DNA from: an uncultured delta proteobacterium
GTDB taxonomy: Bacteria; RBG-13-61-14; DRUE01
Assembly: GCA_903930515.1 (NCBI GenBank)
Contig: CAIYYW010000038.1
Coordinates: 1-8,221 of the forward strand
Direction of reading: 5' to 3'
DNA length: 8,221 nucleotides
In this document: positions 4,705 to 8,221 of the stretch, one piece after another
How positions within the stretch are numbered: position 1 is the stretch's first letter
Layout of the letters: every line of letters begins with the position of its first letter
Program-made: the position numbers and the translations under genes
Notes under the pieces: model-generated
Told to the model about the DNA's origin: nothing
Databases searched by the model: none
Seen by the model: the letters and a program-made list of their open reading frames with translations, nothing else

Positions 4705-4734
4705 TTCTCTGCGTCCTCTGCGCCTCTGCGGTGA
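4705..4734 (+). repeat. 30-nt dispersed repeat, first copy
   Basis: This is identical to 4753-4782, with a period of 48 nt. It is built from three CTCTGCG cores and ends in CGGTGA. I recall this CTCTGCG-type sequence as a common intergenic repeat in many bacterial and archaeal genomes. It fills the spacer between the convergent cyclophilin and DUF362 genes; the open frame across it on the minus strand is not a gene. Confidence 0.85.
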
Positions 4735-4752
4735 GACCAGAATTGATTCGTC

Positions 4753-4782
4753 TTCTCTGCGTCCTCTGCGCCTCTGCGGTGA
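4753..4782 (+). repeat. 30-nt dispersed repeat, second copy
   Basis: This is a perfect direct copy of 4705-4734. It ends 9 bp from the DUF362 stop codon. The spacer shows no T-tailed hairpin, so no intrinsic terminator could be assigned to either convergent gene. Confidence 0.85.
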
Positions 4783-4791
4783 ATATGTATT

Positions 4792-6037: not shown

Positions 6038-6361
6038 ATGGTTGAAAAATCAATTATTGAAGTGATCAAGCTTTATCTTGCGAGTCTGAGCGCGGAAGGC
6101 ATTCACTCGCAACAGGCCATCCTCTTCGGCTCGTATGCGCGAGGACGGGCGGATCAGGATAGCGACCTGGACCTGATTGTGATTGCGCCGGAGCTGGAGG
6201 GAGAGCTGACCATTGAAACCGTGAAAAAATTATGGAGAGTGGCAAGTGAGTCGGACAATAGAATAGAGCCGATCCCGTGCGGACTGGAAGAATGGAAAGC
6301 CGATACCGGCCGACCCATCCTGGAAATCGCAAAAAAAGAAGGATTGATCATTCAGAATTGA
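6038..6361 (+). CDS. MNT-type minimal nucleotidyltransferase domain protein
   Basis: This 107-residue protein belongs to the polymerase-beta-like nucleotidyltransferase superfamily. The signature GSYARGRADQDSDLDLIVI (31-49) supplies the nucleotide-binding Gly31-Ser32 and the metal ligands Asp43 and Asp45; Glu77 in RIEPIP is the likely third carboxylate. Family members that are MntA-type antitoxins modify a HEPN-domain RNase toxin (HepT) encoded next to them. Here no HEPN-like reading frame lies on either side: the downstream 165 bp holds only repeat relics and then an opposite-strand XRE gene. It may thus be an orphan antitoxin, may act on a distant partner, or may have another substrate. No ribosome-binding site is seen at the ATG. 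The fold assignment is strong; the toxin-antitoxin role is inference. Confidence 0.85.
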   Translation: MVEKSIIEVIKLYLASLSAEGIHSQQAILFGSYARGRADQDSDLDLIVIAPELEGELTIETVKKLWRVASESDNRIEPIPCGLEEWKADTGRPILEIAKKEGLIIQN

Positions 6362-6485: not shown

Positions 6486-6516
6486 CCGCAGATGGACGCA
6501 GATGAACGCAGATAAT
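6486..6516 (+). repeat. Three tandem 10-nt CGCAGATgaa units
   Basis: The units CGCAGATGGA (6487-6496), CGCAGATGAA (6497-6506) and CGCAGATAAT (6507-6516) form a short tandem array. It matches in style a common dispersed intergenic repeat. It lies 10 bp beyond the stop codon of the XRE gene. Confidence 0.7.
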
Positions 6517-6526
6517 CAGGAATAGA

Positions 6527-6814
6527 TTAACGAGGAGATTTTTTATTTTGAGACCTGGGCTTAGGCGCGGCTTTGTTGCCTTCAGCTTCTTCCGCGAATT
6601 GAACCAAATCCGAAACTTCCACTTTTAGAGCTTCTGCAATTTTGAGCAGGGTTTTCAAGGTCAGGTTGGCGGGATGGGAGCCGGGAGATTCAATGCGCTG
6701 GAAGTATTTGTAAGGGATCCCAAACTCCTCCATATCTTCCTGGGTCAATCCCCGTTGCTTCCGTAACTCCTTGATTCTCTTGCCAATTCTTGCCGCCAGC
6801 TTCTCAAATTCCAT
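6527..6814 (-). CDS. XRE-family helix-turn-helix transcriptional regulator
   Basis: This 95-residue protein has a Cro/C1-type DNA-binding domain at about 6-74. The turn region TQEDMEEFGIPYKYFQRIE (24-42) contains helix 2 and the recognition helix, and TLKTLLKIAEALKVEVSDL (52-70) is the typical end of the domain. A basic tail (KAAPKPRSQNKKSPR, 81-95) follows. The first ATG is used; its only possible ribosome-binding site is a weak GGGGCTG directly before it. It is divergent from the nuclease-like gene at 7062, and a palindrome lies 33-61 bp upstream, fitting autoregulation and possibly control of the divergent gene. Stand-alone regulators of this size occur in toxin-antitoxin, restriction-control and phage settings; the sequence does not decide which. 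Confidence 0.88.
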   Translation of the reverse strand: MEFEKLAARIGKRIKELRKQRGLTQEDMEEFGIPYKYFQRIESPGSHPANLTLKTLLKIAEALKVEVSDLVQFAEEAEGNKAAPKPRSQNKKSPR

Positions 6815-6846
6815 CAGCCCCGAAGCCTACAGAATTTGCTTGACAA

Positions 6847-6875
6847 TTAACACCCAATTATGTTAGGGTGTTTAA
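6847..6875. promoter_or_regulatory. Palindromic operator candidate upstream of the XRE gene
   Basis: AACACCC (6849-6855) and GGGTGTT (6866-6872) are perfect inverted arms around a 10-nt AT-rich spacer; TTAA flanks extend the symmetry with one extra T. The spacer holds a minus-strand CATAAT (6862-6857) that could be the -10 of the XRE gene. This is a typical arrangement for autorepression by an XRE protein. Confidence 0.5.
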
Positions 6876-6929
6876 AAGGCGGGAAAATGGGACCCAAAAC
6901 CGAAAAATTGCATGGTTGTAATTTATCAC

Positions 6930-6957
6930 TTGACAAGAAATGGGGGGGGGGTATAAT
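6930..6957 (+). promoter_or_regulatory. Consensus sigma-70 promoter with a G10 tract in the spacer (phase-variable candidate)
   Basis: A perfect -35 TTGACA (6930-6935) and a perfect -10 TATAAT (6952-6957) are separated by 16 nt, of which the last ten (6942-6951) are an uninterrupted G run abutting the -10 box. Gain of one G would give the optimal 17-nt spacer; loss would weaken the promoter. The predicted transcript starts near 6964 and leads into the gene at 7062 with a leader of about 98 nt. Confidence 0.8.
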
Positions 6958-7003
6958 TATGATAAATTTAGGGAGGGTATAAATTTTTTAAAATATCTCA
7001 AAT

Positions 7004-7033
7004 TTAATGACCGGATCTGACATTAAGACCGGT
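7004..7033 (+). promoter_or_regulatory. Repeat and hairpin element in the leader of the nuclease-like gene
   Basis: TTAATG (7004-7009) pairs with CATTAA (7021-7026), and ACCGG (7010-7014) pairs with CCGGT (7029-7033). These two pairings interleave, so they are mutually exclusive. GACCGG also occurs twice as a direct repeat. It could be a protein-binding site or a weak RNA switch; the evidence is only the symmetry. Confidence 0.25.
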
Positions 7034-7061
7034 TAAAATAAAAAGGAAAAAGGAGGACACA

Positions 7062-8221
7062 ATGGACGAGGAAAAATTTAGCCCGGTCATTTGTGAAGAC
7101 GAGGAAAAGAGCCGGGAGCTGAAAAGGGTTTACGGCGGGAAGAAAGACGAGAAAAAGGTCTTTGACGAGGGGTGGCTTAAGGAACTTCTAAAGACTCATC
7201 CCAAAATCTTGCCCATCAATGAAATTGAACCCGTGTTCGCGCCACTGATCTCCATCGGAAGAGAAGTACGGACCAAGGCCGGGCCAATAGACAATCTTTT
7301 TATCAATCCTGAAGGTTACCTTACGGTCGTGGAAACCAAGCTGTGGAAGAATCCGGAAGCGCGGAGAGAGGTTGTCGGTCAAATTATTGACTACGCCAAG
7401 GCGCTCGCCAGCTGGAGTTTTGCGCAACTTGATAAAGAACTTGGGATCCGCGAGCTGGTCAAAAACTATGTTGGCGAGGACGAGTTTGATGAACAATCTT
7501 TTATTGACAATGTCAGCCGAAACCTTGAGCAAGGCAGGATGCTCTTGCTAATAGTTGGCGATGGAATCAGAGAAGATGTCCAAGAGATGGTGGAATTCAT
7601 TCAAAAGAGTCCGACTCTTTACTTTACGATGGGACTGGTTGAAATAAAATGCTATAAGCTGGATGAAGCCAAGGATTGGCCCATAATCGCGATCCCCCGG
7701 GTTGTTACTCGCACGAAGGAAATCGAGCGAGCGGTCGTCATCATTAAATTCGAGGGGAAAAAGCCGGAAATAACGGCCGAGGTTCCGGCCCCGGGCGAGG
7801 CAAAGACAGGATCAATTACAGAACAAGAATTTATCAATACGGTGCGCGCTCAATATGGCGCAGATGCCGCCGATGCAGTGATGAGGCTCAAGAAACATTG
7901 CGAGGAAAAGGGGCTGGAGATAAGCTGGGCGACAACCTCATTTTCAGCGCATATGATGGATGTGGGGGAAAGCGGCGAAGCTATAAAGCTGATTTCCGTT
8001 GCCATGGGGGGAAAAGGACATCTTGTCCAGACCCCAATGTCATTGCAAGAGCAAGTGCATGCGGCAGGGCTTGACAAAAGCATAGCGCTGGATTTTCAGA
8101 ATGCCTTAATAAAGAAATTCCCCGGAAGCAAGATTGCCCTACGCCAAAGTGATCCAAATATCAGGAAAGTCAAAATTCCTCTGAAAGACTTCAGCGCGAA
8201 TTTTGATGATTATATAAAAAA
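7062..8221 (+). CDS. PD-(D/E)XK nuclease-like protein of unknown type (partial; C-terminus off the right edge)
   Basis: The frame is open from the ATG at 7062 to the window edge, 386 residues, with an ideal AGGAGG ribosome-binding site (7051-7056) 5 nt ahead. The N-terminal part contains a PD-(D/E)XK-like core: GPIDNLFI (74-81) with Asp77, VVETK (89-93) with Glu91 and Lys93, then REVVGQIIDYAKALASW (102-118) with the conserved-type Gln107. Spacing and order match restriction-endonuclease-like nucleases that act on DNA. The segment around 157-230 continues the fold with several beta strands (RMLLLIVGDG, LYFTMGLVEIKCYKL). A second region from about 251 (GSITEQEFINTVRAQYG) follows a Pro/Glu-rich linker and is not recognised. 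It is divergent from an XRE regulator and driven by the G10 promoter. A defence role is possible but unproven. Confidence 0.72.
   Translation, partial: MDEEKFSPVICEDEEKSRELKRVYGGKKDEKKVFDEGWLKELLKTHPKILPINEIEPVFAPLISIGREVRTKAGPIDNLFINPEGYLTVVETKLWKNPEARREVVGQIIDYAKALASWSFAQLDKELGIRELVKNYVGEDEFDEQSFIDNVSRNLEQGRMLLLIVGDGIREDVQEMVEFIQKSPTLYFTMGLVEIKCYKLDEAKDWPIIAIPRVVTRTKEIERAVVIIKFEGKKPEITAEVPAPGEAKTGSITEQEFINTVRAQYGADAADAVMRLKKHCEEKGLEISWATTSFSAHMMDVGESGEAIKLISVAMGGKGHLVQTPMSLQEQVHAAGLDKSIALDFQNALIKKFPGSKIALRQSDPNIRKVKIPLKDFSANFDDYIK

Follow-up and report, generated by a model that had tools for sequence, protein, structure and literature searches.

A G10 tract between perfect consensus hexamers upstream of a nuclease-like gene points to a probable porA-type slippage-modulated promoter in an uncultured delta proteobacterium

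The window, that is, the whole stretch of 8,221 nt that was analysed, is the entire contig C38 of a 3.65-Mb MAG of 401 contigs, whose phylum has only three genomes in the comparison set. A generic promoter scan of positions 6500-7200 gave a score of 12/12 to a promoter lying upstream of the last gene of the contig. The features of this promoter and its gene are listed below.

6920..6928, + strand: left arm AATTTATCA of an exact 9-bp inverted repeat bracketing the promoter (recognised post hoc)
6930..6935, + strand: -35 hexamer TTGACA, perfect consensus (read from the sequence and found by the promoter scan)
6936-6951, + strand: spacer AGAAATGGGGGGGGGG, AGAAAT followed by G10, 16 nt
6942..6951, + strand: G10 homopolymer that fills the 3' end of the 16-nt spacer
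6952..6957, + strand: -10 hexamer TATAAT, perfect consensus (read from the sequence and found by the promoter scan)
6960..6968, + strand: right arm TGATAAATT of the 9-bp inverted repeat (recognised post hoc)
7051..7056, + strand: ribosome-binding site AGGAGG, 5 nt before the ATG (direct reading)
7062..8219, + strand: target gene, PD-(D/E)XK nuclease-like (GPIDNLF...VVETKLWK...QIIDYA), 3' end cut by the contig end

The sequence-only reading of this DNA had described TTGACA, a 16-nt spacer ending in G10, and TATAAT, and both the sequence and the coordinates are exactly as it gave them. The transcript would be expected to start at about 6964, and the ATG at 7062 starts a 386-codon frame that leaves the contig at its end. 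As in porA-type phase-variable promoters, a tract of at least about eight bases lies inside the -35/-10 spacer (TTGACA-AGAAAT-G10-TATAAT). None of 200 dinucleotide shuffles of the window contained the full promoter pattern, which, with up to three mismatches allowed, has a single occurrence in the 3.65-Mb MAG, at this site. The inverted repeat begins its bracket 1 nt before the -35 hexamer and closes it 2 nt after the -10 hexamer, with 31 bp between the arms. An invertible promoter (inverton) was considered and rejected, as the arms of the repeat are too close, and no Pfam match to a recombinase was found among the eight window proteins scanned. Rfam gave no match in the window or in the related promoter regions.

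Several other features of the window were observed. An HTH gene (6527-6814, minus strand) has just upstream of it a palindrome, AACACCC-N10-GGGTGTT (6849-6872), which is likely to be its autoregulatory operator. A lone MNT-type nucleotidyltransferase gene with a PDC-S09 match occupies 6038-6361 (+), and no HEPN partner was seen adjoining it. Copies of a CTCTCCCT...AGGGAGAGGG repeat at 770-850 and 1195-1245 flank a DUF559 (REase-like) gene at 812-1294, and direct repeats TCTCTGCGTCCTCTGCGCCTCTGCGGTGA lie at 4705-4785, between two genes. A ACAGAGAC/GCAGAG repeat, similar to TCTCTGCGTCCTCTGCGCCTCTGCGGTGA, precedes the homologue of the target gene on contig C1 of the same genome (L066).

The target had been called a nuclease-like gene, and this description held at the level of signature and relatives rather than of the protein's own family match. 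The window protein had no Pfam, NCBIfam or PDB sequence match, nor did it itself give a family-level profile or fold match to a PD-(D/E)XK or NucS-like nuclease; its single-sequence structure model (pLDDT 39) was too poor for a structure search. On the other hand, it carries the GPID...VETK signature and matches PDC-S11 (PADLOC, PDLC04916) at 6e-11 over residues 33-182. The homologue on C1 is 37% identical, and its upstream region is without a G tract. A more distant homologue on C281 of the same genome exceeds the NucS_C cut-off, and its PDC-S11 match reaches 1.5e-42. Across five aligned homologues, D77, E91, K93, Q107, D110 and Y111 are invariant, which is the signature of NucS-type PD-(D/E)XK nucleases, and the D...E-x-K catalytic signature is thus kept among them. 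It suggests that the nuclease reading of the target is reasonable, and from these motifs the protein may cut DNA or take part in phage defence. The target protein has no signal segment, and no relatives of it were found in viral contigs. The match to the PDC-S11 candidate anti-phage proteins of PADLOC is a likeness at the profile level; it differs in being confined to the N-terminal half, and the family itself is only a candidate.

We then consider the G and C runs of the window's own genome. Perfect TTGACA-N15-18-TATAAT sites number 14 in the MAG and none in the reversed control, so consensus promoters are a type that this genome uses. When the G8+ and C8+ runs of the MAG were listed and read in context, nearly all were inside long open frames, the coding G9 runs at C273:2950 and C394:16910 among them, for which reason the other G8-G9 tracts were rejected as promoter tracts. 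Only three runs reach ten or more G/C, and all three sit 1-6 nt past a perfect TTGACA; other non-coding DNA of the MAG is without such runs. The two beyond the window's own are given here, together with two copies in G001, a sister species of the same genus.

C356:8757-8785 (G000:C356): C10, at 8764-8773, in TTGACAACCCCCCCCCCAAGTTCTATAAT, a perfect promoter with a spacer of 17, before a glutamate dehydrogenase gene
very end of contig C341: TTGACAAGAAAT followed by G16, at C341:1-16, the -10 and the gene lying beyond the assembled sequence
G001, C557: TTTTTGACAAGTTCA-G10-TATGCTCGGGAGGCATG
G001, start of C762: TTTTTGACAAGGTCA-G9-TATGCTCGGGAGGCATG, second copy

The C356 tract reads C10 toward its gene. 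Toward the contig end, C341 reads GCGCTTGACAAGAAATG16, in which TTGACAAGAAAT is identical to that of the window and the upstream flank is different. An occurrence of TTGACAAGAAATGGG at C343 was rejected as a further case, since no G tract follows it. From the measured TTGACA frequency, the chance that three of three such runs fall 0-8 nt after TTGACA is about 6e-8, a post hoc figure with a wide margin. The tract is in excess of chance at its position by shuffles, by the runs after TTGACA and by reversed controls, and the position of the G10 after TTGACA is not due to chance. Neither a glutamate dehydrogenase orthologue nor a close nuclease orthologue was found for promoter comparison in the phylum's two other genomes.

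A comparison of the tract among related genomes, which the earlier reading had proposed, revealed the same architecture in the sister species, in near-identical copies with G9 and G10. The C557 copy directly follows a fragment of a gene whose product has a type I restriction R-subunit domain (hsdR), and it precedes a CoA-ligase gene. The C762 copy is oriented divergently to a gene for a protein with a type III restriction res domain. Over the stretch shown, the two are one base apart outside the tract and one G apart inside it, the G9/G10 difference coming from one draft assembly. Both have a weaker -10, TATGCT. The homologue of this promoter in the window's genome (C273) has an interrupted tract, G6-T-GG (TTGACA-AGGGCAG6TGGAT-TATACT). 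In the three genomes, TTGACA followed by G6+ within 8 nt gave 18 listed match positions, some loci being counted repeatedly, versus 2 for the reversed pattern. Not all of these genomes are alike in the enrichment of long runs: of the runs of at least ten, 1 of 5 in G001 and 0 of 3 in G002 follow TTGACA.

The same promoter class exists in other bacteria. The pattern TTGACA-N3-8-G8-N0-3-TATAAT, scanned in 84,980 genomes, matched at least 120 stretches, and the reversed-pattern controls matched none. Among the matches listed, most belong to Clostridia, Bacilli, Candidatus Ancillula and Saccharibacteria, with a few others, and G9 (57) is commoner than G8 (29). A whole search of fifteen chosen genomes gave about 110 such promoters (reversed control 0), and a domain-wide sample had one in 5 of 386 genomes (control 0). 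Only 3 loci of viral contigs carry the pattern. A literature search, limited mostly to titles and the starts of abstracts and of incomplete coverage, found no description of this class outside well-known pathogens.

The sequences of this class bear three signatures of slippage, namely length variation among copies, dispersed spacers and targets of the phase-variation type. Within one genome, tract length differs among copies whose spacer flanks are identical, overall from G10 to G15 in Candidatus Ancillula, where one set of 13 copies ranges over G10-14 and another of 3 copies has G10, G13 and G15. Smaller differences with identical flanks (8-10, 9-10 and 11-12) were seen in Streptobacillus notomytis and two other genomes. 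A spacer of 16-18 was found in 73 of 125 G-tract promoters versus 28 of 30 ordinary perfect promoters of the same loci (Fisher p = 0.0002); the G-tract spacers are spread over 13-19, the pattern being blind to spacers longer than 19. By a simple hydrophobicity rule, an N-terminal hydrophobic segment is present in 70 of 106 driven genes (66%) versus 93 of 380 background frames (24%), p = 9e-15, and lipoboxes are about five-fold enriched (odds ratio) among the driven genes. The Pfam tally of these genes is headed by BspA-type LRR, collagen, InlB-type repeat, Ig-like and beta-helix families, and PADLOC found among them a Cas12a gene and AriA-type and mad-type genes. Judging from these matches, the genes driven elsewhere mostly encode surface proteins, with a few defence genes. 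Both known targets in the window's genome, the nuclease-like protein and glutamate dehydrogenase, look cytosolic, unlike most elsewhere.

A counter-example is a Clostridia genome (G100, locus L087) with 19 copies, mostly TGGTATAAT (extended -10), of which 18 have G8 and one has G7. This family looks nearly fixed in length from its sequences, and it indicates that a spacer G tract may show no visible length variation.

Some of these genomes deserve mention in their own right. In Candidatus Ancillula G098 (L206-L225), 25 promoters read TTGACAAGC-G(9-15)-TG[A/C]TATAAT with a length that varies between copies; many precede large secreted or surface proteins, and several contigs break nearby. Streptobacillus notomytis G110 (L226-L245) has 21 perfect promoters with G8-G11 spacers, which precede a small secreted protein family and other surface genes and form a candidate phase-variable set. 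In a Treponema sp. MAG, a Cas12a gene (L143:6174-7523:-) lies about 100 nt downstream of TTGACATTTTTATG9TGTTATAAT, and it is possible that this is a phase-variable CRISPR effector.

Taken together, the recurrence, the length variation among copies, the dispersed spacers and the target bias make a porA-type slippage-modulated promoter the best explanation of the locus, with a probability of roughly 60%. According to this explanation, a sigma-70-type promoter carries a slippage-prone G10 tract in its spacer, which would gain or lose G during replication and so shift the -35/-10 spacing around the 17-nt optimum. The spacing would be 15 with G9, 16 with G10 (as assembled), 17 with G11 and 18 with G12, in agreement with the earlier statement that a change of one or two G moves the spacer between 15 and 18 nt; one G above the assembled length would give the optimal spacing. 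Cells of one population would then differ in a heritable but reversible manner in the transcription of a probable defence gene, as for porA. The claim of a phase-variable switch therefore stands in its architecture, in the non-chance tract, in the recurrence within the genome and the sister species and in the copy variation elsewhere, while we infer that the tract slips at this locus, that this changes transcription and that the gene serves in defence. By analogy, phase variation at this site is likely. The accompanying rationale, that a potentially costly activity would be made heterogeneous in the population, is weakened, because the second such promoter drives a metabolic glutamate dehydrogenase gene.

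That same gene, for which switching is without obvious benefit, is compatible with a different account, in which the promoter is an ordinary constitutive one, the G run grew by neutral slippage in a weakly constrained spacer and has since become fixed in practice or of no selective importance, and the nuclease-like gene is simply expressed. Promoter spacers tolerate sequence change, and the Clostridia genome holding 18 of 19 copies at G8 fits such fixation. However, runs of ten or more in the MAG are restricted to sites after TTGACA, tract length differs among copies elsewhere and in the sister genome, and the strong surface-protein bias of targets elsewhere is not predicted by neutrality. We consider this account unlikely. 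An error of sequencing or assembly, in the run or in its length, such as poly-G from two-colour Illumina chemistry, is very improbable. Homopolymer length is uncertain in MAGs, and the G16 at the end of C341 may partly be of such origin, but the window tract is internal: TATAAT, the ribosome-binding site and an open frame follow it directly, and the contig continues for more than 1 kb. Moreover, the C356 tract is C10 when read in the direction of its gene, and a separate genome, that of the sister species, has the same architecture.

The inverted repeat raises another alternative, that AATTTATCA/TGATAAATT is an operator pair for a repressor, for example the adjoining HTH protein, and that the G tract sets the distance between operators instead of, or besides, the -35/-10 distance. 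It is reported that NadR binds operators flanking the variable tract at nadA (PMC2791445), and this precedent, the adjoining HTH gene and the exact placement of the repeat just outside the two hexamers speak for it. The repeat was reached in 11 of 20000 shuffles and at 0 of 117 other G-tract promoters, in a test made after the repeat had been seen. Against it, this statistic was picked with the repeat in view, the HTH gene has a different palindrome of its own (AACACCC-N10-GGGTGTT), and the repeat is missing from the C341 and C356 promoters. We regard such an operator pair as improbable as the explanation of the locus, although the repeat could add a NadR/nadA-like control.

Returning to the slippage-modulated promoter, if the tract varies, a mutable promoter spacing lets this lineage hedge how strongly it expresses a nuclease-like gene. 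Such a means has been described mainly for surface antigens of host-adapted pathogens. Our survey suggests that G-tract perfect promoters occur commonly in gut Clostridia, Bacilli, Candidatus Ancillula, Saccharibacteria and Streptobacillus, where they mark surface-protein genes. With this simple signature, phase-variable genes can be sought in metagenomic sequence with no need for culture. As a tentative proposal, which we rate somewhat short of an even chance, perfect-consensus promoters with a G8-G15 spacer tract may be a widespread, phylogenetically scattered class of slippage switch, with dozens of copies in some genomes of uncultivated bacteria. Restriction-like and defence-like genes are among those beside or under such promoters in the window's genus, and a nuclease-based defence would then stand in a low or a high state in part of the population.

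Of the precedents named by the sequence-only reading, porA and opc, the former holds and the latter is disputed. In the porA promoter of Neisseria meningitidis, the two papers agree that the poly-G lies between -35 and -10 (PMC7864442, PMC2791445), and at both porA and tp0126 the activity is best at 17-nt spacing (PMC7864442, PMC2791445). The window shares with porA a poly-G in the -35/-10 spacer whose length sets the spacing around 17 nt. It differs in its target, which is nuclease-like and lacks a signal segment where porA encodes a porin, and in that both hexamers are perfect consensus here, slippage at the window tract is deduced, and the host's phylum is represented by only three genomes in the comparison set. 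The tp0126 promoter of Treponema pallidum likewise has its poly-G between -35 and -10, with an optimum total spacing of 17 (PMC7864442), but there the target is an OmpW-type outer membrane protein. For the poly-C opc promoter of Neisseria meningitidis, in which homopolymer length tunes transcription and which is comparable to the C10 promoter on C356, the two papers disagree on whether the tract is in the spacer or over the -35 (PMC7864442, PMC2791445). As a mechanism, the switch proposed here is of an already known kind; what takes it beyond routine is that it recurs in the genus, in part next to restriction genes, and that the same promoter class is widely dispersed among uncultivated bacteria.
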